A DNA stretch of 64,000 bases from Apostichopus japonicus (lineage: Eukaryota > Echinodermata > Holothuroidea > Aspidochirotida > Stichopodidae), in the NCBI RefSeq assembly GCF_037975245.1, contig NC_092569.1, positions 7,744,501 to 7,808,500 of the forward strand, written 5' to 3'. This document shows, piece after piece, positions 10,527 to 45,100 of this stretch. How positions within the stretch are numbered: position 1 is the stretch's first letter; every line of letters begins with the position of its first letter. The position numbers and the translations under genes are program-made. The notes beneath the pieces were generated by a model. It saw only the letters and a list, made by a program, of their open reading frames with translations, made no database searches and was not told the DNA's origin.

Positions 10527-11004
10527 GTAATAATAGCAACAACAGGTAGTATATGTAATTCAACCCATGCACCTTTACTGACTTGGACCACATGTTGCCA
10601 TGGCAACTGACACCTTTTGTTAGAATGTACGTACCTAAGCGTCGCTTGGTACTAGGAGTAAGTTACCTAGCCAGCTGTATCTGGTCAGATGGAGTCTGTA
10701 CAAGTGAAGGGTGACTCATAGGGCTAAATACATGCTACTACTCTAATATTCTAAGAAAACAACAACAAATGGTGTCTTGATTCACAAAATAGGCCATATA
10801 CCAGTATGCCTACTAACAAATTGCTATAACTCTTCAAATATATAGGTTTGCAGTAGTTCGGCTATTCCTATCACCATGGCAACTAGTCAAAGTGTAGCAT
10901 TGCATTATGGGATCTAAACTAGCTCGAATAAGGGAAACTTAGTACAACTAGATAATAATGTGAGTGAATTACAGTAACGGGTAATGCTAGACGTATCCTA
11001 AGAG

Positions 11005-11033
11005 CAGGGAGCTGCTGCTCTAGCAGCTCCCTG
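11005..11033. mobile_element. Ultrashort hairpin insertion, 29 bp, family 2 (copy D)
   Basis: Arms of 12 bp (CAGGGAGCTGCT) are separated by GCTCT. Both flanks are the identical heptamer CTAAGAG (10998-11004 and 11034-11040), a perfect 7-bp target duplication. Related insertions lie at 12693-12727 and 42855-42883. Confidence 0.8.
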
Positions 11034-12692
11034 CTAAGAGTACATAATAAACTAAATAAATATCCCAATGTGGGTTTTTGTTAGACCAATAACCTAAATT
11101 ACTTTCAATACTCTCATAACGATACACACATAAGATGCCAACGGTTGAGGGCATTTTAAGTGCCATAATCAACCCTAAAAACACATTATTAAACACAGGT
11201 AACAATAATAATGATTTCACCTGTAGACTCCCTATATAGCCATTACATGACAAATTCGAATATATACACGTATTAAGTTATGATGTTGTCTAGATCAAGT
11301 ACGTTTGGCCTGGGTGTACGTCAATAGAGAGTAGATTTGCAATTTCTCATTTATTGCACTGGCGAGGCTACAATGTGATAACTCTCGAGAAACTCGTTGG
11401 TGAAAGCTATAAGACATGCCAGATATTGTCTGATTGGATACGCGTACATATTCGATTTAATACGCGTACATATTCGATTTAATACGAGAATATAATATGC
11501 AGTGTTTGTCCCATGTGGCTTGCAATACCCAGCATCATGGATGGTTCATCGTATCATATATAGGCCTAGTACTACGAGAGTTGCGGATGTTACTAATGTC
11601 CTGAATTGAAACCACTAGGTGCAATGTAGTTCTCTTAACAACGGTATCCGGATATGGTGCGTCACAAACGAGTTCGACTTTCTATGTTGTCAAGTAAAAT
11701 TGATATAGGCTGAAAGATTGGCTCGTGGCAATACCGAATGGAAGTTTAATAATGTATGTCATGCGGCTATTTAATTATGGGAAATCCATCAATAGATCTA
11801 TTTGCCTCACTTGGAAACCCAGAAAGCATTGACAACAAAATCAACCCGCAACATTGAAGATGCATACTCATTCAGTGAGCATTATTTCATGTACGGTTCT
11901 CCACAATAAGTCCACAAAGAGGAGCAACTGTGATTGCAAGCCTTCTCAATTCAAGGATGTAGTGGTATAACCATTGACATTCCAAAACTTCCGAAATAAG
12001 AGGACCCCCCCCCCCAGACACACACAAGCAAAGTAACAAAGAAACAGAAACAAAACTTGTATCTCATATTGGCCTCTTCTGGGCAAAAGCAACTCAGAAA
12101 CAGTAATAATGTTATAGATGAGATTCTGTGCAACCAATATCACGTAATCTCTGCTGCTCGAAGATCTCAATCGAATTCAAGATCGATTATTTTTTCATTT
12201 CATTTCATTTTGGGGGGTTGGGGTGGGGGACCGATTGCAGTGAATGGCCAAGAAAAGGTGCGAAATATAAACAAACAATAATGAGTAACAAGCTTTTTCA
12301 TCATTACAGATGCAAACTTTTATCGGCCAGTAAGGGGTGAGGGGAAGTCCACAGAAGCTACAATATAAGAAAAACATAATGTTAGAAAGATTTATCACTC
12401 TAAAATTTATCTGGGTGTATATCAAGTCCTTGTGGGGGTCCAGGTGAAAGAGACACCAGAAGCTGAAGCGGTTTAGATATGTCAAGAACAAAAATACATG
12501 TGACGTTCAGGGGTGCGAAGCCGTCGAAAGTTTTAGCATTTGTAGATATTTCTTGTTCTTTCGTAGCGACATTGAAACCACTAAAACACATGTTCGAAAG
12601 AGAAATTAGGCTTACACTAAAACTTCTCTCTAATGTATCCAGAGTGTTAATAGGGTTTAGGGGAAAAGCCCTCAGGAACTGCATCATTTGAA

Positions 12693-12727
12693 CAGGGAGC
12701 TGCTACTGTTAGAGTAGCAGCTCCCTG
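12693..12727. mobile_element. Ultrashort hairpin insertion, 35 bp, family 2 (copy E)
   Basis: Perfect 15-bp arms (CAGGGAGCTGCTACT) lie around GTTAG. The flanking heptamers ATTTGAA and GTTTGTA agree at five of seven positions, as expected for an older, eroded target duplication. The core is the same as the 11005-11033 copy with three extra base pairs in the stem. Confidence 0.65.
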
Positions 12728-13529
12728 GTTTGTAGATGTTCTTGTTCTCTTGTAGCGACCTTAAACCACTAAACACATGGCTGGTATAGAAAATTACTCT
12801 TAAGAGTCAGGGCCAAAGACCTCGTAACCTGGAGCGTTTGTAAATACATCTTCTCCTATTGAAGTATATTCAAGCACACGCACACACACGTATACACACA
12901 AGATGAGAGAGGAATTCTATTTATGTTTAACTGTTACTTTCATGGGTGAAAGACCACGCTGAATTCGGCTCCAATTTGCGGACCGACTTCGCGTCGATTT
13001 GGGCCCGGCTTCCAAATCCCCCTTCCCTTCCGTATGTATGCTCCTAATTCGGTCTTGTACTTTCGTTCAGGAAAGGTAAGTTATGGAAGCATTTGGGAGG
13101 TGTTTGCAGGTTTACATTTCGGTTAGAGCTATTGTGACTATACAAAAGCATATATAAAGTAATTGAAAGTTTGCTTGTTGACTTAAATGATAATGTAATT
13201 TGTGTCCAATGAAGAATCAAATGAATAGATGACAGACAGCCAGCCGATTTTGAAGAAAAACACCCGAATGACAATCCTGCGGTGACAACACCCTATTGAT
13301 GTCATTCAGCCCTTAGGGAATTTATAATTGCTCGATCCTTGAGAAACTTACGCTCGATTGACTGGCTTTACGCTCGATAAATCAAATCAACATCGATCGG
13401 TTAATTCTTTATACGAAGCGTTTCTGGATTGGGATACCCATAACACATTGAAATCGTCTATGGTTGGCCATAGTGGACAAAAATTGTGATCGGATGTTGC
13501 TGAATTGTTGTCGGAATGATTATATGCAG

Positions 13530-13740
13530 ACATTATATTCCTGCATTAAATCGAATATATGCTGACATTAAATCGAATATATACTAACATAAAATCGTTT
13601 ATATGCCCTCATAAAATCGATTTTTATGTTAGCATTAATTTAGATATATGCCAACATTAATTTGAAGATATGTCTGTGTATGTATTCGAATTGATGCCCA
13701 CATTAAATCCATTTTATGTAGACATATGAAACTGCCTCCT
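13530..13740. repeat. Degenerate minisatellite, about 22-25-bp unit
   Basis: Repeated variants of GACATTAAATCGAATATATGC (for example at 13540, 13565, 13590 and 13640) drift progressively. The shared core is CATTAAATCGA or CATAAAATCGA followed by TATATG. Confidence 0.6.
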
Positions 13741-14207
13741 GGTTTTGGCTCAGACTCAACGTCTGCATTAAATAGAACATATGTCGGAATAAATTTGTTA
13801 ACATTATTTAGATCTTAGAGAGCTAGATGATCTTAGCATAGCATAGCTAGAACCATGTGACCATAGTTGTGGCACTCATTTATCATAAACTATTAGAACA
13901 AGTAAAATGTGAATAATTACGAATGTTAGAACCACATAGCACTTTCTATTGAGAAGAGTTTATGAATGCAACATTAGGTAACTGTGGAGAGAAAATGATC
14001 TCATGTCATAATTGAGCCCTCAATATTTTGTTTTTCTTTATAATATTACATATGCACAAAGCGAAATAATATTACTACAAAATATAACTACTAAATACAG
14101 AGAACAATGACAACTAAGAATTCATCCCCAAATTCCAAATTTGCAGGGATATATCTACAAGAACAATTGGAAAGAAAGCTATTGGAAATGGGGTACACCC
14201 CTCAGTC

Positions 14208-14325
14208 CGACAAGTTTTCAGTCCGACAAGTTTTCAGTCCGAAAATAAAATACACGTTTTCAGTCCGAAAATGAAATACACGTTTTCAGTCCGAAAATGA
14301 AATACACGTTTTCAGTTGGAGAATG
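14208..14325 (-). repeat. Minisatellite of CGGACTGAAAACGTG units (minus orientation)
   Basis: On the plus strand TTTTCAGTCCGAAAATGAAAT repeats about four times with a 28-bp period (units of TTTTCAGTCCGAAAAT plus GAAATACACG). The same unit in the opposite orientation makes up 16600-16895. Confidence 0.75.
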
Positions 14326-14812
14326 AAAGCATGCAGTTTTAATGCCATAATACCACCAATAAACGGTGACAGCCCGAACTGATAGTAAAGAAATCGATTG
14401 AATTTTTCGTATTATGTCTCACATCGCCGGCCCCTTAACAACTATAAGTTACAAACATATGTAATCTGTTCTTTGCTCCTTAATCCGCTTCCTGTATAGT
14501 CATGGTTTATTTGGTACTAATGCCATCAATGCAATTTACACTTGCCTAGCGTCATACTTTCATTGTGTTACATTTTGTACTTTTCATTCGACTGCCAAGT
14601 ATTGCTGACGAAGGTCTCAATATATTTTCTAAAACTTTACTCCTTATTTGTCAATTATGTTTTCCCCTTCATACCAAAGTTAAGTGTACCACTGCCCTTG
14701 GAAGTCACCCCCCCCCCCCCCATCCATAAACTGAACCTTCAGACTCACACATAGACTCGTAGACCTGACGTCAAACTAGGTAAATTGTTATTTTTACAAT
14801 TGGACACATTCT

Positions 14813-14842
14813 ACTAGGAGCAGGGATACTAGGAGCAGGGAT
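14813..14842. repeat. 15-bp tandem duplication TACTAGGAGCAGGGA
   Basis: Two adjacent copies of TACTAGGAGCAGGGA, followed by a short ATT-repeat. The AGCAGGGA string resembles the arm and left flank of the family-2 hairpins, but no complementary arm is present. Confidence 0.6.
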
Positions 14843-14849
14843 ATTATTA

Positions 14850-16435
14850 TTATTATTATTATACGGTGAAGGGTGGGGCGTGAACGTTTGAAAATGTGAT
14901 CATAAAGACCTCTAAATGCAATGATTATAAAGCAAACATTTAACTGATGTAATTTTGGACACTCCCTCACCCCTTCTCGGCCTCGTGCACCCCCTCACCC
15001 CTTCTCCCCTCTTACACCTCTCACCCCCTTCTCACCCTCTTATATCCCCCTCGCCCTCGAACTCGATAATCTTGTTCATATACGATACTTTTTTTCTACA
15101 TCTTCTACAATACGTATAAGCAATAATACAACCGTCATCTTGTATGCAATTCAGAAAAGGCTATAAGAAAGCCCTGTCGTTAAACACTGGCAAGCAATAA
15201 TTGATTCATTTACTAACGTAACGTTAAGTTTGACTTGACAAGACTCTTCGACCGAGGAGCCGAGGATTATGGTTCATTTCGTCTTATATGTTTACAAGAG
15301 GAACAATTAAAATTCAGTAATCGCACAAAATGAACTAAACTCGGGCTATGATTTTTTTTATGAGGTAGTAATAATCTTGAAGCGAGCGACTTTTTTTTTG
15401 TAATATTGTAGAATTTTGAAGCCGTGGTTGCTTCTATCAAGATTGATAATTTGTACACAATGATCAGTTTAAAGAAACACATGACGATAAGAAACCCTTT
15501 GTTGTTCCTTTTAATTGTCTTTTATGGTGTTTAGAGATTTGTACTCTCAGTAAGATGTATCTATCGAGACAGAAATGTTCATATTGGCCATTCAAGTGAT
15601 TCAACAGGCAATATATAAACTCAACATAATACGGTATAAACGGGGAAGTTTTCTGCTGTCTCTTTAGATTATTACAATTTTTTTATTATTATTATTATCA
15701 TCACAAGCATTGTAAATATACTTTGATGAAAATATATCTATTCTTGGAATTTTCTTATAAATTTTCCATATTGATATTTTTTATCGTCATATGGCTTTAT
15801 GACTGCTTTGCATATATGCATATTATTAATAAAAATGAGCAAGGTTCAGTATGGCCTATATACGGTATACAAAGCCAATTTTGAAGGAAAATGTAGAGAG
15901 ATCTTTTAGAAATAAACCGTCTTTTTTGATGATTAGTTTTGAAAGTGTCTAAATGGTTTGTATCATATGACTAATTATTTCAGTTTTGAATATAATATTT
16001 CCGCGTAGACGTGTGTATTCCAGAAAGAAAAAGAAAGAAGTAGGTATTAAAATATTATTAAAAGTTATCGCGTCCTCATACTTGTAACGAACATAATTTA
16101 TTATGTGCAAATAAAGATTTATTTTCAATATTGTATCCCGTCACTGAACATTTATGTTAATTATATCGTTTTCAATGTTACCTACATAAAAAGAACAGCG
16201 AATCAAATTTTATGAGATGCAGGTAAACATTTACAGATTTACAGATATAAATCGAACGTAACGTATACATGCGCATGTAGGGAATGGTTACCCCCGCCCC
16301 CGCCCCCCTCCGTGCACGGACTCCCATGGGGTTTATGCGAGACCTGGATATGAGTATAAAAATTAATTAGCAAACAGCATACTGCCTTGAGGGAAAACAC
16401 TTTCTTCACCTTTTCCTCAGCTTATTCTATCCGAA
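14850..16435. other. Intergenic sequence, nothing recognised
   Basis: C/T-rich stretch near 14955-15060 (CACCCCTTCTC-type repeats), otherwise AT-rich sequence. There is no supported exon; the minus-strand frame at 15267-15482 has no recognisable motif. Confidence 0.45.
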
Positions 16436-16437
16436 AC

Positions 16438-16465
16438 AACACACACACACACCCACACACACACG

Positions 16466-16545
<80 letters not shown>
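16438..16545. repeat. Compound (CA)n(TA)n microsatellite
   Basis: ACACAC-type repeats from about 16438 to 16486 pass directly into about 58 bp of TA dinucleotides. Confidence 0.9.
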
Positions 16546-16547
<2 letters not shown>

Positions 16548-16599
16548 AATTTAATAATATATAGGCCTATATATATAATGAACAGTATATATTTAAGCT

Positions 16600-16895
16600 C
16601 CGACTGAGAACGTGGATTTTATGAGAACGTGGATTTTATTTTCGGACTGAGAACGTGTCGGACTGAAAACTCGTTTTTTCGGACTCAAAACGTGCATTTT
16701 ATTTTCGGACTGAAAACGTGTATTTTATTTTCGGACTGAAAACGTGTCGGACTGAAACTCGTTTTTTTTCCGACTGAGAACGTGGATTTTATTTTCGAAC
16801 TGAAAACGTGTCGGGCTGAAAACTCGTTTTTTCGGACTAAAAACGTGTATTTTATTTTCGGACTGAAAACGTGTCGGACTGACAACGTGTACCCT
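16600..16895 (+). repeat. Minisatellite of CGGACTGAAAACGTG units (plus orientation)
   Basis: TTCGGACTGAAAACGTG alternates with TATTTTATTTTCGGACTG and shorter spacers (CTCGTTTTTTC) about ten times. Array architecture varies between units. It abuts the left target duplication of the hAT-like element at 16916. The open frames over it are repeat artefacts. Confidence 0.8.
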
Positions 16896-16915
16896 TGGAA
16901 ATCTACCGCGATGAC

Positions 16916-17112
16916 CATAGGCGTACGAGGCGGGGGGGGGGGGGCAGGGGGCAGACTGCCCCCCAAATTTCCAGAGGACAAGAAATTCGGGCAAAAGTCC
17001 TGAAAAATTCGGGCAGCCTAAGAGGAGAAATATATATATATATTTTATTTTTTTCCTTCTCTTAGGCTGCCCGAATTGTTCAGGACTTTTGCCCGAATTT
17101 CTTTTCCTCTGG

Positions 17113-17177
<65 letters not shown>

Positions 17178-18552
17178 TGCAGTAGCTTGCCCGAATCTTT
17201 TTCAAATTTTTGCCCGACAATTCCATGATTTTCTTTATTTAGCATCATGATGCCCGAATATTTCCGTGTAACACCACCGTAAGCACAGTTCATCTGGGCT
17301 ACCACGCTTTTTGCACGATCATTTTTCTAGTCAATTGTATACCTGGACCAAGGGCGGCGGAACCGTGGAGCACAGGGGGCACGTGCCCCCCACTTTTCCT
17401 CAGGTTAAAAATGTGCCTTTTTTCTACATAAAAATTGAGGTGCCTCAAGTTAGCAAGAGGCCAGGGAACCAGAATGAACACTCGGGAAGGGCCGTTTCCG
17501 GCCATCTGAGGGGTTTGTAAAACCAAAAATTTTTTAGTACGCTCCGCGCCAACCGCTGGTGGCGCTCCGCTCAGATAGTCGTGCATACAACTTTGCAAAT
17601 CCTGGCTAAGCCCGTGACTTTTAATGAATTTCTGTGGGTCAAACTCAAAGCTATTTCGAATGGAAAAGATTTGTTTAGATATTAAAAAGTAAAAAAACTC
17701 TAATTCGGAAGATTCCTACATTAGCAACTAGCATGATTTCACCTCATTTTGTCTCAAAAGAAAACTTGTTCTTTGTTTCCCAATTTGCGCATTGGATATT
17801 GCAGTGCTAGTATGCATATTTTCCTTTTGGGGGGGGGCGTTGATGGAGTGATGTGTTTACACAAATAAGATAATACAATAAGAGTTATAAAGGGTACTAA
17901 ATATAAGGCTGCATCAGTCCAATCGAATATCTGCAAAGTGCCCCTTGATGTCGGTGCCCCCCCCCCAAGATTAAAAGTGCTTCCGCCGCCCTTGACCTGG
18001 ACATCCCCAACATGAGTGTATATAAGAAACGTATTCTTGTTCATGGATGGTGGGGGGGGGGGTGCCTACAAGTCTAGAAGTACAGGTTTATCATATATAC
18101 TTTTTTGTGAGACAAATTGCAGTCTCACCCGACACAGCGACATTATCCCGCCTACGTGTCGTTGAACAATTTATGTTTCTCTGGAGGTAGCTGAATACTG
18201 TATTAAAATAATAAATAAGGTAACTAAATAGGAGCTTAAAAAATATACTGTCCCATTTTTCCCCTTCAAAGTGATGTTACCATTTTTTCTTCTTCTAATT
18301 TACCAAATTTTTGGAGAAGTGTAAATTTCTAAAACGTGAGATTATAAAATAAAGAATGTTTAGATGCAACTTGCAAGGCCTCAGAAGTGCCGTTTCCGGC
18401 AATCTGAGAGGCATTGTGTGCCAAAAAAATTTCTTGTACGCTACGCGCCAACCAATGGTGGCGCTCCGCTTAGATAGTGTCACGGGAACTTTCGAGCACA
18501 AAAAGTTCTGCCCCCCCCCCCCCCCAAACTGAAATGGTCCCGTACGCCTATG
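16916..18552 (-). mobile_element. hAT-like non-autonomous transposon with a nested second element
   Basis: Termini are CATAGGCGTACG and CGTACGCCTATG, flanked by a perfect 8-bp duplication GCGATGAC (16908-16915 and 18553-18560), the hAT hallmark. Length is 1,637 bp, of which 654 bp is a later insertion (17349-17994 plus its duplication), leaving 983 bp. A second copy in opposite orientation lies at 43522-44392. Inside are poly-G/poly-C tracts just within the termini, GCCCGAA repeats, a (TA)n tract and the GCGCCAC module near 18400-18480. No transposase frame is present. Confidence 0.9.
17349..17994. mobile_element. Nested hAT-like MITE, 646 bp
   Basis: Perfect 14-bp inverted termini (CAAGGGCGGCGGAA...TTCCGCCGCCCTTG) are flanked by an exact 8-bp duplication ACCTGGAC (17341-17348 and 17995-18002). 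The sister copy at 43.5-44.4 kb carries a single uninterrupted ACCTGGAC at this point (about 44089-44096, minus strand). That supplies an empty site and proves the nesting order. The interior includes the GCGCCAC module in minus orientation (17500-17590) and no open frame of note. Confidence 0.93.
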
Positions 18553-18862
18553 GCGATGACGTCACAGCCCACCTATATTGGAATCCACTCTGTGTAAGAT
18601 GAAGGGCATACTCAGTAAACGCGTGTTCAATCATGAAGTTGTGAAAAGTCATTACAGTTTGACGTTCAAATAGGACAGCTACTGTGTCTATCTTGCAGCT
18701 ACGGAAGTATAACACAGGCTGGTGATTCCGTGCGTACCGAAAAGGGAAAAAACAATAAGATAATGTTTTATCTTTGATTATGTTTTCGATGTACCACCGG
18801 TGTTATTCATCGATGAAATAAGTCATTGAATTACTAAAAATGACAGTGATAGTTGTTAAGAC

Positions 18863-18893
18863 CATGGAGCTATAAACAGTTTATAGCTCCATG
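18863..18893. mobile_element. Ultrashort hairpin insertion, 31 bp, family 1 (copy B)
   Basis: Same 15-bp arms as the copy at 369-399 (CATGGAGCTATAAAC), with A in place of T as the single centre base. A perfect 7-bp duplication TTAAGAC flanks it (18856-18862 and 18894-18900). Identical arms beside a different duplicated heptamer are direct evidence of mobility. Confidence 0.85.
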
Positions 18894-18900
18894 TTAAGAC

Positions 18901-19723
18901 TTAGAGCTAAGAGCTAGACCTCACATAGATGTGAGTTTAGTAATGGATATGCAACACTTAACAGCGACGGTGTCACCGGTGTGACACGTGTATACTATTC
19001 GAGTGTTAGTTTAGATCCCAAATTTGAGGCCAAAGTTGAAATGGAAGCCACCCGACGTGAAGGTGTAAAGCATAAAATGATGCGGGCTTCTCCCACATTC
19101 ATGGCATGTGTAGCTCTATGGTCGCGTCAGCATGGTAATGCATTGGTAAGGTAATGCATGGTGATACATAAGATATATGCATATATATATATATACTATA
19201 AACAATATACATTAATCCTGTTAGGAGTAGTTATACTGTGCTATAGTAGTGATGCCGGTTGTTTTCTTAATTCTTCCTCTACGTTAGGTTTTATCACGGA
19301 ACAACTATTTTCATATCTATGACTTTGGAATCGAGATTATTGCTGAATTGAATATACAATAAAGATGGTAAGTCAGTGTTCCTTCGATAAGCTTTACCAA
19401 ACGTCAGTTGGAACTTATTAGTAGTGCTGGTAATAGTAGCCTAGGTCTTAGTAAAATATTAGTGACTTAGTCGGACATCTAGTTCAGATAAAGTTAAGTT
19501 ATTAGGCCTAGTCACACAGAGAGAGAGACTGTGAAGATAATCAAAAATCTGTGATACGAAGTGTAGTGTTATGCGTAACCACAGGTTTTGCATATGATTA
19601 CTGTTGTCGTTAGTCTGTTGGTCGCATCGACGATCAGCTGTTCTTCGAGAAAGAAGAGCTTCGTTGATTCTTACTATGCATTACATGCATTCTCCCATTG
19701 ACTTGTCTAACTCAAGAGGCATG
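18901..19723. other. Intergenic sequence, nothing recognised
   Basis: About 820 bp with no supported gene. A short TATATA run lies near 19175-19195. Confidence 0.4.
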
Positions 19724-19731
19724 GGTAACAG

Positions 19732-21087: not shown

Positions 21088-21095
21088 GGTAACAG

Positions 21096-25600: not shown

Positions 25601-25609
25601 CACGGCAAA

Positions 25610-26770: not shown

Positions 26771-26789
26771 AACAGTATGTCTCAGTGCT

Positions 26790-27268: not shown

Positions 27269-28689
27269 TATGGCAAGCCGTTTTAACATTTACCTCGCAA
27301 TTAGACTTAAGTGGAATACATTTCAGTTAAGTGGAATACATTCTACTTAAATGAAATGGAATTCCACTTAAGTGAAATGTATTCCACTTAAGTGGAATTC
27401 AATTTCACTTAAGTGGAATTCAATTTCACTTAAGTAGAAATGGACATTTCTATTTCACTTAAGTGGAATTGCATTCCACTTAAGTGGAATTGTATTTCAC
27501 TTAAGTGGAATACATTTCCACTTAAGTGGAATTGTATTCCACTTAAGCTAAATAGCCCATCTATTTCACTTAAGTGGAATACAATTCCACTTAAGTGGAA
27601 TGCATTTCCACTTAAGTGAAATACAATTCCACTTAAGTGGAATGCATTTCCACTTAAGTGGAATTATATTCCACTTAAGTGGAATACAATTTCACTTAAG
27701 TGGAATAACATCTTTTGGGCGTCAATTTCACTTAAGTGGAATTCTATTCTGCTTAAGTAAAATACAATTCCACTTAAGTGGAAATGTTGATATGTGGCTT
27801 ACATATAAATACAATTTAGGGTAATGTTCGTCGTAATGCATTCAATTGCTCATCACATATGATGATTTAGTCGATCCTTGGTAATTGTTAAAACGGCTTG
27901 CCATAGGAACAATCAGTATGATGCACAACAGAGGCGACTTACATCTTGTTTTAGTAACATAGGCAGAATTCGTAACTTTTTAGATAGTGAAACTTTTGAC
28001 GAAATAAAAGATTCCATCCAAAACCCCAAATCCACAAAAAGTAAAACGTTTTCTTGCCCTTGTCAATGCGTTTTCGGCTGTAGCTCCAACCACTTATAAT
28101 GTATTTGCCATGGCTTTATTTTGGTAATGGTATTCGTCAGGTACCAGGTCAGGTACGTACGTACACACCCTGCACGGACGTTAAGTGCTAGCTGGATCCC
28201 GATGGACAGCCGATATTCATTGTGCACATATCGACACCACGTACGTACGTACACGTATCGCGGCAAGTTGTTTATAATGGCGCGCAAAGGCATGGGCAAA
28301 GTTTGGCGGTAAATGTACTAGCCAATCACATTCCACTTAAGTGGAATAGACTAGCCAATCACATTCCACTTAAGTGAAATAGACTATCCAATCACATTTC
28401 ACTTAAGTGGAATGCATTTCCACTTAAGTGGAATACAATTCCACTTAAGTGGAATGCAATTCCACTTAAGTGAAATAGAATTTAGCTTAAGTAAAATGCA
28501 GTGACAAGTTGATGAATTCAGCGTAAGTAAAATACAATTAAGCTTAAGTGGAATGGTATTCCACTTAAGTGAAATAGAATTCCACTTAAGTTAAATAGTA
28601 TTCTGCTTAAGTGAAATTGAATTCCACTTAAGTGAAATGTATTCGACTTAAGTCGAATTGCGAGGTAAATGTTAAAACGGCTTGCCATA
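27269..28689. mobile_element. Foldback element with palindromic CTTAAG arrays
   Basis: The ends are inverted repeats of more than 40 bp with one mismatch, beginning TATGGCAAGCCGTTTTAACA. They are flanked by GGTACG on both sides (27263-27268 and 28690-28695). The related sequence at 25750-25760 contains this site once, so a 6-bp target duplication is plausible. Inside, the left arm (27305-27785) holds about 22 and the right arm (28330-28665) about 13 copies of a dyad-symmetric unit TTCCACTTAAGTGGAA with spacers of 3-20 bp. The 520-bp centre has no long open frame. A further copy of the right terminus at 27885-27905 suggests that two elements merged. The architecture resembles the foldback (TU-type) transposons known from sea urchins; that comparison is by structure only. 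Confidence 0.75.
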
Positions 28690-29040: not shown

Positions 29041-29694
29041 CAAAGAGCTTTAACGTGGTTCTGTTGAGTGACAAACATTTCTGGCCCTATCTACGTTCCC
29101 TTATTGCTTAAAAGGAGGTAATTTACTAGCGAAGACCAGGTTGACAATGTATGTATGTATGTATGTATATGTGATCTTCCCGCAAGCAGGAACTCGCGAA
29201 AGAAGCCATGGAGGCTTGTAGACTCGCAAGCTGACCGAAGCCAATCTCTCGGCACACATCCATTTAACGTGTTTCCATTTAACACATCCATTTAACATAA
29301 CAATGTTATATATCGGTCAGCATCACCCTCAAAACTCGGTTAAAGTATAACTAATACTTCGAGTGTCGACTGTTGTGGGAAGAGGCGGCAAAATGTTATT
29401 ATTATCATGGAGACTACACTCCAGAGGGACGCTGTCCGCTCTATTTCGATCGTCGACTGTCAGAAGGCTGCATAATGAATGTTAAACTTATCTTCCGAAC
29501 TAATTAGTCATGTCTGTCTGACTCTGCTGCTTATCAATCGTTACTACCATTAGGGTAGTTGTTTGGAAGGTCGGAATTTCTAAACGTTGGAGAAAGATCA
29601 ACCATGTAGGTCGAAGGTAAATGTATTTTAACCGATACGCGGCGGTGATAGTTCCCCGCCATCCGGAGCATGGAGGTCAAATCCGGGGTCAGAG

Positions 29695-29722
29695 CAGGGA
29701 GTTGTTATGGAAAAACTCCCTG
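29695..29722. mobile_element. Ultrashort hairpin insertion, 28 bp, family 3 (copy G)
   Basis: Nine-bp perfect arms (CAGGGAGTT...AACTCCCTG) surround GTTATGGAAA. An exact 7-bp duplication GTCAGAG flanks it (29688-29694 and 29723-29729). The copy at 43017-43044 is its exact reverse complement over all 28 bp, but lies beside a different duplicated heptamer. Confidence 0.85.
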
Positions 29723-30218
29723 GTCAGAGTCAATATATTTTATTCAGTACGCGGGAAATGTGGAAATCTCCCGCTCTACGTTCTAGGTGTGACATGCGTA
29801 TTTGCATTCTACTGTAAAATGTATACTGCTGTTTACTCAGTGAAGTAAGCCGAATGTGCCGTCTACGTCGTTACATGTCGCAGGCCCAAAATTTCTTAGT
29901 AGCTGCATATATGCACGCACAGTAATTGCATTAATAGTTGAGACCGTTAACTTACTTACCCCGATCTGATATTACAAGATGACTTCTCCTGACCTGGATA
30001 CCGATGACGAGTAGGCCTACATTATCATTGGAAAATATCTTTCGTCAGGACTGTACCCTGAAAAGTCTACGATAAATCTAGAAAGATCGATAAGGGGAAG
30101 ATCGAAGAGTTTTAGACTGACGGGAGATGCCGATCTAGTTTACGTCGGCCCACATGGCAACGAAGATAGGCCCTTGGCCAAAGCCCACAAAATTAAAGCT
30201 TACAAGAAGGGTTTGGCG

Positions 30219-33153
30219 GTAAGTGTATTATTTGTTTATTTGTATAAAACTTTTAGGAATTATTTCCACTGAAGAAAATGATTCCATAGATATGCATATA
30301 ACTTGAACTAAGTGCATTGGCCATTTGGGCCTTGCAGATTATAGGTATATTTTATTATTTGTAATCACCTAAGACTAAGAGTAGAACTGAAAAGTCAAAA
30401 CTTTATTAGTGGTAGAGAATATCGTAATGCATAATTATTCGGCAAGACACGAATAGTATTAGGCTACTATAGGCTAGCCTACTGTAGCCTAGGTGTAGGA
30501 CTTCGAGAGGTAACCCTATTTGCAAATAATTTGCTTTATTCAAATTCAAGCCACTCCGATTGGCAATCTCTGAAATAAAGCCTAGGCCTACTTGGTATAA
30601 TTTTTGTTACTCTGGTAGCTGCCAAAACTCCCAGATCAGCTGTCAGTTACATATCAGCTGTGTATTGTGTACCCATGCTACCATGAGTATACAAGCTTTT
30701 AATTTCAATAATGATTATGTGTTTGGAATTGCTAGGTTAAAAACAAAGAAATCTTCAGGATAGGACTTTTCAGATTTTCTGAAAGATATGTCCTGGGATT
30801 AGTCCCCTTACTAGTTAAAACACAAGGTAGCAAGGGAGAGGGGGGTCCCTGTCTTGTCCATTTGGAGGATCAATTAAATTAATGAGTGTTACTTTATTAT
30901 CTCTTTCTTTTTAGAGGTTTTCCCATATTTTTTTAATTTATTGGTGCCGGGATGTGCACAGACACTGCAGCAGGTCGAATATATGCAATAGGTAATCAGT
31001 TGGCCACCTGACCATCACTTCATTGTCAGAAGGTTAGCTGTGTTGGCTAATAATTTTTAATAAGTTTAATGGGCCTCTTTGCTGGTGATATTTTAATTAT
31101 GCAAACATGTACATGGTTATGGTATGAATATTCATTAAACATTCTTCCACAGTAATTAAGGTTGTTAATATATGCACAAAACAATGTTGCAATTAAATTA
31201 GTGCAGGTTAAACCATGGAGCTATAAACCTGGGATTATACAGTAGCTCCATGGACCAAGTTTATATCATTTATATTAAATTTGCAATGTATTATCACATG
31301 TAGACACTGCTTGGTGATATACTGTAGTATTGCTAGAATAGTGACCAGAATGGACCTAAAAAACTAATATAGGCCTAGTGTAATCTCTTTGACAAATTTG
31401 AGGGTGGGTGAATAAATTTCTATTCAGGAGGATAGCTGGTTGTGGAGAGAAACAATTGAAAAAAGAGCAAATAAAAATGCACAACAATTTGCTTTCGTTT
31501 TTATCCCACATGTTATCATGAACTTATTTGACCAAATGATAGGAGTATTTTGGTATAAGACCCTAATTTGAAAGAAAGGGATCTGAGAAGGTGGCTAAAT
31601 CAATAGAAATATCAGGTTCACTTCAATTTCTGTAAGAGTCCTTGTAGGACACGAGTGACAATTTCACCACCTAAGTATTATTTTCATCTGCATTTCAGCA
31701 GGAGGCACATGTACACCTGATTTTGATGGAATCTGCAATGGAAGTTGTGTAACATGTTTTTTTTCAAATACCTATCCTAGCTCATAGGCCTTACATGTTA
31801 ATGGAATACATATGGACCACCTTATGCGTTCAGCTTATTAATGCTAGGCCTGGGTCGAAAATACTGTTCACAAGCAGCACAGTTATCACTAAATCACTTT
31901 TTTTTTGTCATCTAAAAGCAATATTTGTTTGCATGATTGTAACTGCAAAGTCATTCACCATATCAAGTTATCAACCGATGCTTAAAGTTTGCATCCCTTT
32001 GTTGGCCAGTGCAAGAGTATAAGGAGCATGTGTGGAGATTGTCCAGAGAATGAAAGATCTAGCTCATTCATTTGTTCTTAAAGTTATAATTTACTAAGCA
32101 TATATTAAAGATGATCATGATGGTGGTACATTCAGTAGACTTAATGGCTCGCAGTACTGTCGGGAATTTTCATGTACTGCAGCCATAAACACAAATTTCG
32201 CTAAGAACACATTTTGGTATTTTTTTTTAGCTGCGTATAATTAAAGCAACAGGAAAACCTTTACATAGGACTTCATAATTATCTGATATGAATTTCAAAA
32301 TGAAAAGAAAACTGAATTGTAATATGAAGCAAGAATGACACATGAACATAACAGAGTTCAGTACTTGAATTGTTGTCATAAAGAAGTATCCGAGAAAATG
32401 TCCTAGGTACGTACATTCATATGCAGTTCATAACTAAAGTACCAACAGAGCCATATAGCCTTTTGTCCAAAATTCATCCCCAATGAACCCATATGCTTAT
32501 TTCAACATCTATTTAAGTAAAATTTGCTACTTGGTTAATAACCAAGAAGTCTTTCCTTCCATACTGTAACTCTACAGTGTGAATTTCTGTCATTAATATA
32601 AAAAATTCTGCAAATTCCATTCAAAGATTAATTTGTAACATTTCTAAATGCTTACAATATATAGATACCAAAGTATAGGTTGTACCAATGTATGCTTCCT
32701 ACATCAGTTAGGTGTAACCCTGTCATCTCACTGACAGATTCCAAGGCAATTTTCTGACTAACTATCAATCACTCATCCAGGTACTTATACATCTGTCCCC
32801 CCCCCCCACCCCACATTCAAAGGTGATGAAAATGGTTACCAGGCCTATGATAGTCCCTAGTGACAATTACCATCTAGGTTGTCAGCTAGATCACTGCATG
32901 TGACTTGCATCTCACTTCAGAGATTTCCCATTGGACTTCCATATAACAGCTGGGTTTGACAAGTCAGTAAGTAATAGGTTTGGTAATGAAGAAAAAAATT
33001 GGTAACAGAGTCTTCCAGTGTGAGTTACAATAAAAAATAAAAAAACAATTGAATGTTTAGCACTTTACAAAACTCAGATATAAATCACTTGAACATCAGT
33101 TCGTATGATTAGATTGTGTATGGTTCTGAATGCCATTTTACTTCTTTTTTTAG
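30219..33153 (+). other. Large intron of the integrase pseudogene
   Basis: It has donor GTAAGT at 30219 and acceptor TTTTTTTAG before 33154. Only AT-rich non-coding sequence and the hairpin at 31214 were seen. The missing HHCC zinc-finger region should lie here but I could not identify it. Confidence 0.5.
31214..31252. mobile_element. Ultrashort hairpin insertion, 39 bp, family 1 variant (copy C)
   Basis: Termini CATGGAGCTA...TAGCTCCATG are identical to the outer arms of the copies at 369 and 18863, with a longer, imperfect centre (TAAACCTGGGATTATACAG). The flanking heptamers GTTAAAC and GACCAAG do not match. It is either old or has undergone rearrangement. It lies in the large first intron of the integrase pseudogene. 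Confidence 0.55.
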
Positions 33154-35906: not shown

Positions 35907-36195
35907 ATGGAGAAAGGATCAGGGCAAGGAGAATCGGGTGAAATAAAACGACCTTATCCTGGTACGAGCTTAGGCCTAGGCTAGGTTTAACTGGAGGAAG
36001 GCCTTTGTTGCATGGACCTGACAAAAACAGCAGTGCAAAGAAACAACAGCGACGAAGAGATGCCACGAAGATCTATCTTCTACGTTCCTACGTAAGCTGG
36101 CAAATGGAGAAAGAACTCTACAAACATGTCCATGATTTGACTTCTGTGAGCAACGTATATTTCGCAGGACATTTGCTTCAGGATCACACAAAAAG
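35907..36195 (+). CDS. KDZ gene, 5' exon(s)
   Basis: ATG at 35907 opens MEKGSGQGESGEIKRPYPG and meets a stop near 35975. A second frame from about 35995 reads HGPDKNSSAKKQQRRRD and ATKIYLLRSYVSWQMEKEL, ending at the donor AAAAAG|GTAATG (36195/36196). The two frames could be joined by a very short intron (GTACGA near 35961) or reflect a frameshift. The RRRDATKIYL...W...K.L pattern is a motif seen at the front of animal transposase-like proteins and fits a DNA-binding or tetramerising start. Confidence 0.65.
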
Positions 36196-39100
36196 GTAAT
36201 GATTTGCTAAGCTAGGCTAAAACTGTATAGGGTAGTTGTCCTAGGTTACATGTATAGCCTATCAGTATTGCGAAGTACAGAATACTGTGAAGTTCGGACA
36301 CCCTAAGAAATACACGATTTCACCATGATAACCTACAAGCAAAAGCCAATATCACTAAACACTACGAAGCTACAGTTATTTCCTCTCCAAAATGACCTGT
36401 GTGCAAGTATGTACGTATATATTTGTCAATAAAATGAAGATATAGGAGTTTTGGGGTATTTTAAGGCTTAGGTGTTCGAACTTCGCAGTGTCTAGTATGC
36501 TATTGTATTTGTAACATACATGATTTGATATGCCTAGGCTATGTAACTAGGCCTATCGTTCATTATTTTTCCAATGGGCCTAGCGTATGCTAACCTTATC
36601 ATACTTCTCCTAGCACAAAATAGCAGTAAGTTGTATTACTGAGTCAGCATCATCACTGTTTGTGAATGCTTGTCATGAAGATACTGTATACAGTTAAAAA
36701 TGAAAGTATCCTTTCTAAAGAAGACTGACTCATATTTATGCAATGGAAAGCTGGGCCTTCTCATCACCAAAACCTAAACTGTTTTTGCCTCAACAAATTG
36801 ATGGAAATATATTTTCTAACCACTAGGCCTAGGTGATCTGTTCATCCCCACCCCCCTCCAGGTTCTAAATTGTTATCAGCTGTGCTTGTTTGAAGAAGAT
36901 ATTCTTGTGAATGAGCATTTGAAAAAAAAGAAAGAAGTTTGAAGCCTCATCTTTGCCCAGTCATAATTAACTAGGCATATATAGAACTAAGGCCTATAGT
37001 AATAAGTATCTGAATTTAGTGTTCAAAGTAACTGCATCCCCTAATTTTGTAATATGCACCAGTGAGGAAGGCCTACTGTGCTGTACAAGTACAACCACAT
37101 GGACCTGCAGTTTTTCCTATAAAGATAATGCATCTACATAAATACTGTAGAATCACTCCTAACTGATTCCTAACTGATTTTCTAAGGTCAGCCACAGCCA
37201 GCATATACGCAATCAAGTTTTAATGGTTCATTTGGGCAACGTGGTGTATATGTTATCTACTGACTCAATCATGTGTACATTTCTGCATTTGGGATTTTTG
37301 AAGGAACCCAACTGCTATGCAAGAACTAAGGTAAATTAGCCTCACAAATTGAGGGAACATATTAGTACATATAGCTACACCTATATAAACCTTTATATTG
37401 CCATGCCTGGATGTAAGAAAGTACCAGTTTTTTTTGTGTAGGCCTGATGCTATAATGTTGTGATAAGTTATCATATTTTTATATATGGGTCCATCCATGC
37501 CAAATCAACAGTGGCCTTCACGCCCACCCTCTCAGAATTGCCTGAAATTGATATGGTGTCTTGCAATATGTCTCAAAGGATGAAATTGGGCAAAAAAAAA
37601 TGGAAAACTTTTTGGTTGCTAGGATACGGCCCCGTCTAGCAACCAAATCCAGATTGCATTTTAAGAGCCCTAAATGATGTGATGTTTAGTGTTCAAAAAT
37701 TATAATCTATTAAATTTGGTGACGGTAACTATCTCTTGTGGAGAGTAATCTAGCGTTATTTTTGGTAGTCTGAAAACTAGCTATGCATGTAAACAGGAAT
37801 TTTTCACAATGGTGGGCTTATGTCATGGAGTAAGCTAGCATCTCAATTCTCACTCATGAAACCAACTGCTCACATAAACAGGAAGTTTACACAGTAGGTA
37901 AATAATGAGTGTACATCAAACTTTGATCAAAAGACTGGACATCTTTTAGTGATATGAAACCAATCAGTTCACTTAGACAGGAAGTTTACATAGTAAATTG
38001 TACATTGACATGTGAGCTCAGGTTGTTGAGCAAGCAGTTGGGCAACACAAAATTATCCTCACAATTTTCTTGAAAGGTACCACGGTTTTAGGATATGTTG
38101 AAGAAGAGTATGAAAGAATATATCATCCTTATCTGGGTTTAAATCATTGTGGGTTAACAATATGTTATTATTGAAATCTGCCAAAGTGTTTGTTTGTTAC
38201 TTTTCTCTTTCATATTTTTTCTTGGGTAGGTATGATAAAAACATGTTTGTTTGTAATGATTTGGTCATTACCAGATTCATTACGCATACAATTAAGCTTG
38301 GGGTGTACAGCAAAATTACTATTTCAGTTATATGATTTACGGACATTTTTTTTGTTTCATTGTATAGGTTTCAAATGCATCTTTTCCGGAAAGATGCTGA
38401 AAGTCAAACAGAGGCATTCTCAGCAGCTGTCACCACAGAAAGATCAGTTGACACTCAGAAAGGAGAAGGTAAATTTATATGTTTATCCTTGCATGAATAA
38501 CAGACTGGAAGAGCGTGCTAATCTTATATCTGATCTGATGTGATCAGAAAAATAATACAATTTCAATCTCATGAAATTCCTAAAGAAAAGAAAAGAATGG
38601 TAGCATATTGCTCATCCACTAAAAAGCGTACATATGTATGAGAATTTATATAAAAGTCAGTGGGCCTGATATTATGAGGATCTTCTTTAGAGGCAAACTT
38701 ACTAGTAACAGGAAATTCAAGAGACACAATAGAGCCTGGAACAGAGAGGACATGGTGAACACAAAGAAAGAAGTTAATGGTGTATTGAACAAAAGGAGTC
38801 AGTGAAAGCAGAGGTATTTAGATAAACTGTGGAGTACAAAGCGAGGATTAAGAAAGGAGAGAGGGGGAATGAACTATGGCAGAATACAGAGATGGAGCAG
38901 GATTAAGTTAGCATAGGCGTAGGAGCCTCATTTGATTTGTGGGGGGCTGAAACGACTTGCCCGAAAAATATAACCAAAATTTCCGCGCGCGATCAACATG
39001 TTGTTGTGCATATCATATAGGCATTCATCGGTTATTACATCACATGCCAATAACATACAATCATTTTGTGTCTTATTAGCCTTCCATATTGGTTAAAATT

Positions 39101-42100
39101 ATTGGGGAATCTGTAAAACAAAAATGATCATAACAATATAAGTTTAAACATTGAAAAACACATTGCAAAATATTCTTCTTGCAGTAGGTGCCCGAAAAAA
39201 TCTCAACTTATTGCCGAATTTTCACCAAAAAAAGTGAAAAACACATTGCAAATTATTTTTCTTTCAGTAGGTGCCCGAAAAATTCTCAGCATATTGCCCG
39301 AATTTTTACCAAAAAATGTGGAAAACACACTGCAAATTATTCTTTTTTCAGTAGGTGCCTGAAAAATTCTCAGCATATTGCCCAAATTTTCACCAAAAAG
39401 TGTGAAAAACACACTGCAAATTATTCTTTTTTTAAGTAGGTGCCCGAAAAATTCTCAGCATATTGCCCGAATTTTCACCGCACATTGCAAATTATTCTTC
39501 TTTCAGTAGGTGCCCAAAAAATTCTCAGCATTTTGCCCGAATTTTCACCAAAAAATGTGAAAAACACACTGAAAATTATCCTTTTTCAGTAGGTGCCCGA
39601 AAAATTCTCAGCATATTGCCCGAATTTTCACCAAAAAATGTGAAAAACACACTGCATATTATTCTTTTTTAAGTAGGTGCCCGAAAAATTCTCAGCATAT
39701 TGCCCGAATTTTCACCAAAAATTTTGGTTGGGGGCTGCAGCCCCCCCCCCCCCCCGCCTCCTACGCCTATGTAAGTTAGTTATGTCCTTCTTGTATATTG
39801 AGCCCATTCAGTTGAATGGTGCTAAGGCATTCCGTCCACTCTCTCTATCTCTGCTGTGGTGTACTATGTCTGAGATGGTTAGTCTACGAATTTAGTTACC
39901 TGTTGGGACATGTCTTACTTTAATGGTATGATTGGGGAACTGAAAGTGTTCCCATACTGGAGTCTCCATTTTCATTGTATTGACCTGTGACTAGAACTGC
40001 TTATTGAGGGTGGTCTTGGTTTCACCAACATACTTGTAACTTCAATATTTTCTACTTCAATGTCCTCTAAACTCAATGACACCATTTAAATTGAAATATC
40101 AGTTTCCAGTGCTGCGAAAGTGTGATAAGTTCTAAACAAAAGTATATTTTTAGTCACAGCCATAGTAGCTATAGCAGGATACTTGCAATCTAGTAACAAA
40201 TGTTTTATGTAATCTTTACAGATACTTCTGATCCAGTTACTTCAACACCTCTCAAGAAGCCATCTGCCATGTTCTGTCCAATGTCACCAGTAGGATTAGA
40301 TATGGAGCAGCATGGGAGAGAAACCTCAGACCATACAAATTCACATTGCCACATTTACATGATCCTGAACAAAAGATATCATACATATGGCAGGGGCACT
40401 TTTCCCATACTTTTATTGACAGGTTGTGCGACATTCACGTTGGATTAGCAGCTATTGATACATCTGCATCACCAGATAGAGATAAATTGCTTTCGTCCAT
40501 TTTGTTCGATAGTAGCTATGACTGTGAATCCGAAGCTTGGCCATCCTCTAAGTCAAGGTGGGCAAGGTTGGGGAAATTCAATCAAGGAGTAACAATCAGA
40601 GAATGGCCAGCTTTGTATTATTGTATATAGGCCTACACACACAGCGGGTGTAAATATCTGTATCGGTTTATTTATACTGGTGTTCATATCCGTTGCCAGG
40701 AGGCAGGAGGGGATATGATTTGAATGTGGGGAGGGTGTGGGGGGTGGGGAAGGGGTCCCCTTTGAAGTGTTCAAACGATGCTACATTTTACATCTATCTT
40801 CTTGAATCACATGTATATTAAACACCCCTATAGACACGACCAATCAGTCCTGTCTCTCACCTCCTCTCATGCACTGGTGTATTTATTTCCTGGCAACATA
40901 ACAGTTAGGCATAGTAAGGGTCAGAGGTCATCACAACTTAAAGAGTTGTGTGAGTCCCTGTGGTCTCTTACATCCTTGTAGCAGTAGGGAGAAGAAGCCT
41001 AATAGATCAGAAACCATGATCATCTTCTGTTGTGTCTTATTTTCCAGCATCCTTGAAACATTATATCCTTCCCCTTTGATTTCTTGATGTCATAAGCTGT
41101 ATTTATGTGGTGCATTATTTAATTCCAGTATTGAGATTGTATATTCTTCTTGTGTATTTGACAGTATCCCAGTGATCTCCATTTTCTGCTCTTGGTTTTC
41201 TTTTCTCTGTATTTCATATCATATCTATCTCTACCCCTAACCTCCATCTCCACATTTTCTTTACTTTCTTCCTCCATCCCTTCATCTGTCTGTCACTCTT
41301 TCTTTTTTGACCTCTTTCCTTCCCTCTGTTTACCGTGTATGTTTTAGTTTGCCGACTCCCCCCCTTACATCTTACCCCCCTAAAAAATGTTCACAAGGTT
41401 GACAAGTCTCCCCATGCTAGTCCCAAGCTATACACCTTTGTTGTGGTGACCGTTCACTATACTTGCGGATCAAATGGAAAGCCCCACCCCCACCCCTTAC
41501 TTCCCAGTGTCATGAATCGGCAAATGGAAGATTATTCGGAGTTGTTCGTGGACGGTTCAATGATCTTATAGTCAGGCATAGGCCTATATGGTTCTCTTTG
41601 TCCTTCATTGTTGTCGAAGTTTGAAATGAATTAATCGTGCTAGAAACTTCCGGGCAATGTTTAATTTTCTGTGGCAAGAAAAAAAAGCTCCCCCCCCCAG
41701 TGTCCCTCCTGGTTGACTAGAGCCTGTACGCCTATATGGTCACACAATAGTATAGATAAGTATGAGCCATGCAGACAGCTTTTTTTTTCTTTTTGAAAAT
41801 TCAATCCAATTTGAGTTATAGTTTCGAGTTGTAATTCGAGTCAGTCGTGATGAGGTGCCCCGTGGTGGGGCTGGGTAACCCACCCCAACCCCGTTGCCGA
41901 CTTTTTGGCATTTCTTTGGGAGCCGTTCGGACCAAGAGGCAGGATAATTAATACTGGAGTACAGTACGCTGGAAAGCAATAAACTGACGTGATTTAGAAA
42001 AAAAGTTTTTTGCCTTGACTGCCGATGTTCAGCAAGTCACTTTTCAATAGAAATAACTATTCATTTATTGTTCATGTACTTATTCCCTTTTTGCCAATCC

Positions 42101-45100
42101 TTTCTAAAGAGGGTGGAGCCGCCCCTTATGGCAACGTATTTTCGTTCCCTTTTCCGTTCAAATTTCGTTATTTTTAATTCGGGTCAAAGGGGTGCAAGGA
42201 CAGGGTTTACGTGCACCGGTTAGGAGGATGGGGTGCAGCTAGAGCAAGTGTTCTGTGATCGCCTAAAGAGCCCGTTGTCAGGAGTCCAAAAATAATTAAA
42301 TATACATATTTATCTATATATGTTTTATGACATAAAATCCTCCTGATATATAACTAACATTTATATACAAAATACAATGTAAGTTGTGACTGTGTCTATA
42401 TGTGTAATTAATACCTAAATTGGCTGAAATACCAATTGTTCACATATGATGGACTTGACCATACGTTTGATACCCAATATTGTAATCACTTCAGTCAATT
42501 TTTTCACTCATTCGCGTCTGTCCTTTTTGTGACACGAGTCAATGTATCAGACATAAACTTCACTATAAGTTTCTTGAGCTGTGAAAGAATGTCGGCTCGC
42601 AACTAAGGTTGCAATATTTCAAATACTTTACTCAGGTTAGTACAAGACTGGCGCATCTGTAAAGGTTTGGAATACACTGGTTTTTTACAGTAAAATAGCA
42701 TTAAGTTACTGTACTTCTATAGGCTAAACTTCTGATATTCGATACAGCATAAAAGCATGCAGAGCTTTCCAAATCAGTGAATCAACTACGAAACCAGGGC
42801 ATCCGAACAGTTCGGACTTCGACTGTTCACCATGTGGGCCTAAAAGAGTAAAAGCAGGGAACCGCTAGAGTAGCAGCTCCCTGGTCAAACTATTACACCT
42901 ATACTGTACAGCCCACTAGTTGTGAAAAGTTATGAACGTAAAAAAAAAACCACAGAGTTTTGTATCACACAACACACACGAAAACGCGACGTAATAATTT
43001 ACCGCATACTACTGACCAGGGAGTTTTTCCATAACAACTCCCTGTACTGACACTGCCACAGACAAGAAACTATGCAGGAATTTCGCCAAGGCCACCGCTT
43101 CAGGTAACCAAACCCGTTTATTGCTTACTAGCCGTAAATACGGGATTGCTGAGAAATTACAAAACAACAGCGACGAACCGGTAGAGGGTAGTATTGATAT
43201 TATTTTTGAATCGGTCGGTGTGAAGGACAGAATTAACGAGGAAATTACGAGCGATCCCACCTTTAATATTGGAAGCTTGGGCAGATCTCGTACTTGGTAA
43301 GATAGTGCATAACATTGAGTAAAAGAAACTGTTTGATTTTGTCGGAGGTCATAAAGGTCATTTGAAGTCAAAAAATGCCAAAGTTACCTCACTCCCCTCT
43401 AACCTGTCCCTACACTAACGCACCTTCCTAAACATAATATTTCAGAAGCTTGGAACGATCGCATCTATGATATGTAATTGTACCACATTTAGTACAGAAG
43501 CCTAATGTTGTGGGCCGAGGTCATAGGCGTACGGGACCATTTCAGTTTGGGGGGGGCAGAGAGTTTTGTGCCCGAAAGTTCCCGTGACACTATCTAAGCG
43601 GAGCGCCACCATCGGTTGGCGCGTAGCGTACAAGAAAATTTTTTGGCAAAAAAAGCCTCTCAGATTGCCGGAAACGGCACATCTGAGGCCTTGCAAGTTG
43701 CATATAAACATTCTTTATTTTATAATCTCACATTTTAGAAATTTACACTTCCCCAATAATTTGGCAAATTAGAAGAAGAAAAAATGGTTACATCACTTTG
43801 AAGAGGAAAAATAGGACAGTATATTTTTTAAGCTCATATTTAGTTACCGTATTTATTATTTTAACACAGTACTCAGCTACCTCCAGAAAAACATACATTG
43901 TTCAACGACACGTAGGCGGGATAATGTCGCTGTGTCGGGTGAGACTGCAATTTGTCTCACAAAACAGTATAAAATGTAACAAAGAATATGATAAACCTGT
44001 ACTTCTAGGTTTGTAGGCACTCCCCCCCCCCCACCATCCATTCCATCAAAACGAAAATGTTTCTTATATACACTCATGTCGGAGATGTCCAGGTATACAG
44101 TTGACTAGTTAGAAAAAAAATTGATCGCGCAAAAAGCGTGGTAGCCCAGGTGAGCTGTGCTTACGGTGGTGTTACACGGAAATATTCGGGCATCATGATG
44201 CTAAATAAAGAAAATCAATGAATTGTCGGGCAAAAATTTGAAAAAGATTTGGTCAAGCTACTGCATATTTATATATATATATATATATATATATAGTTTC
44301 TCCTCTTAGGCTGCCCGAATTTTCAGGACTTTTGCCCGAATTTCTTGTCCTCTGGAAATTTGTTTTTTAAGACTCCCCCCCCCCCAGGCCTATTTTTACA
44401 ATTCATGGTTAAGTAAGTTTCCAGTGTGCTATGATTGTGTTCTTTGCTTTGATTCAACAGAGATCTGTTTGCAACAGTTTTTCTTCAAGTTCCACAAAGC
44501 AGTTGTATGACCAATTGAAGAAACTCAAAAAGTTTGAAGTACAGTAAGTGTTAAATATTTTATTAAAGTGGGATTATATGCACTCCATAATCATGCAGTT
44601 ACTGATACCAACCTCGGTGGTATACATTGGCAGTTACAAGCAAAATTTTGTAGTGCTTAAGCAACTCTCAAAATTCAAGCAGAAACAAATATTGATTAAT
44701 ATTAATGATAAAGGTGCTCTACCTGTTACCTATCATCATCGCTCGGCCAAACGCTTTGAGATGTTTCGCTACTTGTTGCAAACTTTTGTTGTGCTATATA
44801 GTAATGATATGTATACTTTCAATGGTTAAGCACTGCATTTAAAGGAACTTTTTATTGAAAAATGGGATCCAGTCCTTCTGGTCATATCATTGTTTGTAAG
44901 TTTATCGCCCTAAGCCTTGCCTTGTCATGAATTTTACTTTCTGTGATTGAGTGCTTGAACTGTTGGCCCGTCCTGCCAGAAAATTTGAATATAACACTGA
45001 CTTACGTCGAGACGTGACCTTAGTGCTGCACATAGGTCACACTTGATCAGATCTCACCCTAACCTTGCCTTGATACAATACACAGGAATGCGTACAGACT

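Follow-up and report, generated by a model that had tools for sequence, protein, structure and literature searches.

The question raised by this locus is what a set of very short hairpins with matched flanks represents: units that a transposase moves around the genome, as an earlier note on the sequence had proposed, or the remains of something longer. The window (the whole stretch of 64,000 nucleotides analyzed here, C9:7744501-7808500 of a 671.6-Mb assembly in 35 contigs) holds eight hairpins of 28-39 nt, all present at the positions previously given for them, and five of the eight are flanked by perfect 7-bp duplications (CTTAACC, CTAAGAG, TTAAGAC, GTCAGAG and TACTGAC). The imperfect copies had also been described correctly: two (at 12693 and 42855) match at 5/7 and the third (at 31214) has no clear duplication. 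Only the span of 10998-43051 assigned to the eight was too narrow, as it omits the copy at 369. The features are listed below in window coordinates; the word scar anticipates the interpretation argued for later, and no strand is assigned to the features as a whole.

362..406: scar; CTTAACC, hairpin 369-399, CTTAACC. Read on the minus strand, the hairpin is CATGGAGCTATAAACAG and then 14 nt of the other arm
10998..11040: scar; CTAAGAG, hairpin 11005-11033 (CAGGGAGCTGCT type), CTAAGAG
12686..12734: scar; hairpin 12693-12727, flank match 5/7. Read on the minus strand, the hairpin is CAGGGAGCTGCTACTCTAAC and then 15 nt of the other arm
18856..18900: scar; TTAAGAC, hairpin 18863-18893 (CATGGAGCTATAAACAG + TTTATAGCTCCATG), TTAAGAC
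29688..29729: scar; GTCAGAG, hairpin 29695-29722 (CAGGGAGTTGTTATGGAA + AAACTCCCTG), GTCAGAG
31207..31259: probable scar; hairpin 31214-31252, flank match 3/7
42848..42890: decayed scar; hairpin 42855-42883, flank match 5/7. Read on the minus strand, the hairpin is CAGGGAGCTGCTACTCTA, with the other arm mutated
43010..43051: scar; TACTGAC, hairpin 43017-43044, TACTGAC

The join of hairpin 369-399 recurs identically at L087, L096 and L097, and hairpins 43017-43044 and 29695-29722 carry the same join on opposite strands. At 31214 the left flank (GTTAAAC) agrees with the target motif given below and the right flank does not repeat it; this hairpin is probably the scar of another subfamily, or one with extra loop bases. 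Two other repeats were observed in the window: an element of ~1.1 kb at 8954-10254 with ends CAGGGTTGGC.., apparently lying within (AT)n, with (AT)n on both sides, and arrays of a 21-bp unit around the palindrome CCACTTAAGTGG at 27298-28680.

Duplications and target sites across the genome

The pattern CATGGAG..CTCCATG occurs 1,774 times genome-wide and CAGGGAG..CTCCCTG 3,069 times, compared with 58 and 55 occurrences of the respective reversed patterns. The huge copy number predicted from the window is thus borne out (~4,800 exact matches in 672 Mb). The window is not, however, the typical sample it was taken for: it is a local hairpin cluster. The genome counts predict ~0.46 exact hairpins for a stretch of 64 kb and the window has 7, ~15 times the mean density.

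Matched 7-mers at other genomic hairpins, the test that the earlier note had set in advance, were found in both samples read. Among 44 CATGGAG hairpins on C1 (those fetched of 50 places listed there, out of the 1,774), the 7-bp flank repeat is perfect in 28 and has at most one mismatch in 39, and perfect duplications of 4, 5, 6, 8, 9 or 10 bp are absent from all 44. When flanks were paired across different loci as a control, a 7-bp match was seen in 0.26% of pairs, or 2.1% with one mismatch. For the CAGGGAG hairpins (n = 18) the duplication is perfect in eight and within one mismatch in 13; these 18 form the head of the match list, from which five further copies of one repeated locus (the first copy was kept) and C1:2135133, which is not hairpin-like, were left out. 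The flanks mark L096/L097, L104/L105, L108/L109 and L167/L168 as likely duplicate loci and, because some sampled loci thus appear to be mutual duplicates, the counts overstate the number of independent events. At 44 sites (39 of the C1 loci and five from the window) the duplicated target tends to match GTNNRAC; T is favored at the third position preceding the duplication and A at the third position following it. The shared termini and constant 7-bp duplication had therefore been correctly recognized, and one type of enzyme is likely to lie behind all the window hairpins.

Arm limits and joins

Almost every arm that was read leaves the element sequence at nt 17-20. This limit was read in detail in 36 CATGGAGCTATAAACAG arms from 38 loci (no arm came from three loci with CTG for CAG, two came from one locus, and neither L039 nor the array L057 was included), 18 of the 38 having been picked mostly for their absence from the CATGGAG hairpin list. 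Nucleotide 18 is A in 36/36 arms, and nucleotide 19 is T in 16, A in nine, G in six and C in five. In 19/36 arms a second copy of the duplication, differing at no more than one position, follows within 0-14 nt, and six of these arms (L048, L055, L056, L115, L116 and L118) keep it only 0-3 nt past the 17-mer. The second duplication is absent within 14 nt in the other 17, seven of which represent two scars carried within copies of two repeats (L044, L117 and L127; L056, L121, L129 and L130).

The tail length in the window families appears to be 18 nt, or 20 nt for CAGGGAGCTGCTACTCTAAC, compared with 17 in Drosophila. Among 100 arms listed for the CAGGGAGCTGCTACTCTAAC family there are four flush 20+20 joins, which tails of 21-23 nt could also produce by pairing at a palindrome. 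Hairpin 31214-31252 and L089 have their first 23 nt in common (CATGGAGCTATAAACCTGGGATT), exceeding the 18-20 nt limit, and perhaps constitute another subfamily. A constant sum of duplication and stagger of 25 (8+17, 7+18) was considered and dropped, as the CAGGGAGCTG family suggests 7+20.

For the CAGGGAGTTGTTATGGAA arm, the other arm follows within 22 nt and closes the hairpin in 1,229 of 1,690 copies and does not in 461. Of 100 such joins listed, 65 fall at two positions, the only ones among 13 that offer 2-nt terminal (AA) microhomology; the remainder comprise 14 at 1-nt positions, three at 0-nt positions and 18 that are not clean. The hairpin loops thus look like end-joining junctions at microhomologies.

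P elements in the same genome

The RNase H domain of P transposase has at least 45 matching stretches in the genome, and two families with intact elements could be delimited. The first is represented by L035, where an element of 7,016 bp is bounded by perfect inverted repeats of 31 bp (CAGAGCCGTATATAGAGAGAGTTTGGCCAAC) and flanked by an 8-bp duplication (TTGAATGC). Its 781-aa open reading frame (L011) contains the TNP RNase H domain (PF21787) and the GTP-binding insertion (PF21788), and its best solved relative is the Drosophila P transposase 6P5A (E = 6e-38). The 17-mer of the L035 end occurs 521 times genome-wide, and the first 100 of these places include 30 inward pairs, separated by a median of 4,234 bp (range 676-5,719); a perfect 8-bp duplication is present in 10/10 of the further pairs whose flanks were read. 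The same ends form 240 hairpins genome-wide, compared with none in the reversed control. Among ten of these hairpins that were read, the 8-bp duplication is perfect in six, 7/8 in one, 6/8 in one and absent in two, and the 50 listed of the 240 measure 22-34 nt (34 being 17+17), although the pattern allowed 42. Of 21 unpaired arms at 20 loci, in seven the element sequence carries on (with mismatches in two) and the other 14 leave the element at nt 17-20: 13 at nt 17-18, which are often inseparable because nt 18 could derive from the other arm or the duplication, and one at nt 20, where the duplication overlaps. Eight of the 14 departing arms have a perfect 8-bp duplication within 14 nt. Indirectly, the L035-type scars would thus agree with an internal cut ~17 nt from the end on one strand.

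L071 represents the second family; it spans 8,180 bp, encloses a match to P transposase (PF21787, L005) and has ends CACTGATCTACACTAACTGGATAGG.. and the 8-bp duplication ACTGCGCG. Its ends form 190 hairpins compared with two in the control (a count of the hairpin pattern alone), among them C6:12324332 (34 nt, 17+17 with one substitution) and, in a subfamily with two extra nucleotides, C6:3587222 (38 nt, 19+19). Several of those listed extend to 39-45 nt, which we read as probable inserted bases.

Empty and scarred versions of one site are preserved in a dispersed repeat. At window 43594, window 18473 (minus strand) and L066, GACACTAT is followed directly by CTAAGCGG, and at L064 and L039 the order is GACACTAT, scar, GACACTAT, CTAAGCGG; a separate empty-site search for the scarred dispersed repeat gave no matches. 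This repeat (..ACTATCTAAGCGGAGCGCCACCA..) is a recurrent target of the 8-bp P family, and its copies include those at window positions 43594 (+), 18473 (-), 2689, 20803 and 54928, and L064, L039, L175 and L181. Among the 30 element-sized pairs there are also three tandem couples of 8-bp-family elements exactly 8 bp apart (C2:24174629/24174638, C2:30236372/30236381 and C3:9800744/9800753), and double scars 7 or 8 bp apart lie at C1:3254298/3254330 and C2:19065868/19065898; in both arrangements insertion appears to have recurred, with later copies entering duplications made by earlier ones. Elsewhere, C16:5351356-6081533 (L023-L027, L031) carries a cluster of related P-transposase-like stretches within 0.7 Mb, ~84-95% alike and possibly a domesticated tandem family.

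For the 7-bp families, longer intact elements sharing the hairpin termini, which the earlier note had proposed looking for, did not appear in the part of the genome searched. This part took in the first 100 listed arms in each of four families (of 783, 381, 407 and 1,690 arms) and ten 7-10-kb stretches with P transposase matches, and it yielded no intact element with CATGGAG or CAGGGAG ends. Inward pairs were read by eye for these four window families (by script for the L035-type ends), leaving out pairs of 48, 58 and 77 bp. The P transposase loci L036, L037, L038, L069, L070, L072, L073 and L074 gave no clear element ends, and L072, a weak donor candidate that matches 9/17 end positions, was not taken. 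Three apparent elements were rejected: C2:23817227 (1,059 bp) and C4:14203788 (5,468 bp) each consist of separate scars, and C1:4962001-4967468 has a closed hairpin at either end. C4:14203788-14209255 and C1:4962001-4967468 belong to different 7-bp families and have an equal outer length of 5,468 bp, which may be chance. With no donor found in the part searched, 7-bp donors are either gone or few.

Origin of the hairpins

Because eroded arms persist, element sequence stops at nt 17-20 and the joins fall at microhomologies, we regard the hairpins as the remains of longer elements that have departed: each would be the excision scar of a P-superfamily DNA transposon rather than a mobile unit, a reading to which we assign a probability of roughly 0.88. 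The scar anatomy, the duplication lengths, the arm limits, the join spectrum and the P transposase genes can all be read directly from the DNA, as can the intact P elements accompanied by apparent scars of the same kind. In the proposed mechanism, a P-superfamily element would insert and duplicate 7 bp (8 bp in the two other families of this genome), and its transposase would later cut the outer element end on one strand and ~17-20 nt inside on the other. Both flanks would then keep a 3' single-stranded tail made up of the outermost element nucleotides. Such near-identical tails could pair only at short self-complementary stretches and would be joined by end joining, mostly at microhomologies, to give the duplication, the left tail, a variable part of the right tail in inverted orientation and the duplication again. 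Since no intact 7-bp donor turned up, we infer the P-type transposase for the donors of the window scars, together with the strand chemistry. A more tentative proposal, which we hold at somewhat below even odds, is that the window scars come from P-like families with 7-bp duplications and an inner cut shifted to 18-20 nt, which made thousands of jumps and have since vanished, or nearly so, and which would then be known from their scars alone.

The alternative put forward in the earlier note, that the hairpins are ultra-short MITE-like units mobilized in trans by one transposase, with a 7-bp duplication per insertion, would account for identical hairpins at many loci, with termini in common and differing duplications where these were read. 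It fails, however, to fit the eroded arms that keep the duplication; in the six arms with only 0-3 nt past the 17-mer, insertion by two ends is hardly possible. The loops resemble microhomology joins, and the common joins are the ones that microhomology predicts. Scars of the donor whose ends are known stop at nt 17-20 of a 31-bp end, and P derivatives in Drosophila are described as needing 138 and 216 bp of end sequence (PMC1562414). A MITE has two ends with enough subterminal sequence and inserts as a unit; here there are ~20 nt per end, and one-arm copies with an intact duplication. We thus consider mobility of the hairpins themselves highly improbable.

We consider it very unlikely that the source was a different cut-and-paste superfamily, such as hAT, Mutator or one not yet described, in which excision also leaves long pieces of the ends behind and insertion duplicates 7 bp. 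Such an origin would be compatible with the failure to find an intact 7-bp donor or its transposase in the part searched; against it, the 17-20-nt arms lie near the 17-nt stagger that, in the account given in PMC7776569, distinguishes P elements, the target motif is Galileo-like, and similar scars are seen for two P families of this genome. A lack of any transposon history, the hairpins being simply inverted repeats or RNA hairpins whose flanks match by chance or local duplication, would suit the small size and mostly good pairing of the hairpins. This explanation is scarcely credible, contradicted as it is by perfect duplications at 7 bp only (n = 44, compared with 0.26% in the mispaired control) and by one-arm copies that keep the duplication. 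Programmed somatic elimination was also set aside for those scars that occur in repeat copies or duplicated loci (L121, L129, L130; L123, L124) or in a tandem array (L057); being common to such copies, or built into the array, these scars are inherited.

Two loci within the scar families stand apart. At L057 (C2:31519100-31519900) a scar hairpin and its duplication have been amplified to a tandem array of ~35-bp units, evidently an excision scar turned satellite. At L156 (C4:14209188-14209267) a single GTATGAC duplication pair encloses a CATGGAGGTAAAAACAGA arm followed by a closed CAGGGAGCTGCTAGCAGCTCCCTG hairpin, a composite scar that would fit use of one site by both end types.

Relation to known P elements and significance

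P transposase is described as making staggered cuts, one strand being severed at the very end of the element and the other 17 nt further in, which produces long tails, and this stagger as one feature that sets P elements apart (PMC7776569). The closest parallel to the scars is provided by the excision junctions of P{wa} in Drosophila melanogaster, reported to consist of two duplication copies enclosing as much as 17 nt from either element end, with blunt, microhomology and insertion classes like those seen here (PMC2895639). The P{wa} junctions, as presented there, were laboratory-induced and have 8-bp duplications and 17 nt, whereas the window families comprise thousands of natural cases with 7-bp duplications and 18-20 nt. 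Galileo, a P-superfamily element of Drosophila, likewise makes 7-bp duplications, with 8 bp in three copies (PMC4168063, PMC3573991), and its palindromic GT..AC target, with consensus GTANTAC, resembles GTNNRAC (PMC4168063). It differs in its long inverted ends and surviving copies as these sources describe them, and scars do not feature in the accounts consulted; the likeness noted here is one of duplication and target (PMC4168063, PMC3573991). Zebrafish Pdre2/THAP9 is a deuterostome P-type transposase system in which the ends also start with CA; the ends of 13 bp, the 8-bp duplication and the at least 50 homologous sequences given for it are differences, and the account consulted offers no catalogue of scars (PMC10983969). 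The P-derived MITEs of Anopheles are similar in being short P-related copies, with the 8-bp duplication length of P, but are reported to retain P ends of somewhat less than 100 bp plus internal sequence, whereas the hairpins here keep ~20 nt per end and nothing of the inside (PMC1562414).

The mechanism of the excision junction is therefore already known from Drosophila; the natural abundance, the 7-bp duplications, the tails of 18-20 nt and donors that were not found appear to be new. No natural genome-wide catalogue of P excision scars was found among the titles and abstract openings of the open-licence papers listed by the literature searches.

Scars this short may escape standard repeat annotation. 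If the excision reading is correct, past jumps can be counted from the scars, beyond the copies that survive, and the cut position of the missing transposases can be read from the scar tails. The hairpins would also amount to thousands of natural end-joining junctions from the germline of a non-model organism, their spectrum preserved over evolutionary time, and the long stagger of P transposase, to judge from the scars, may reach into echinoderms as well.
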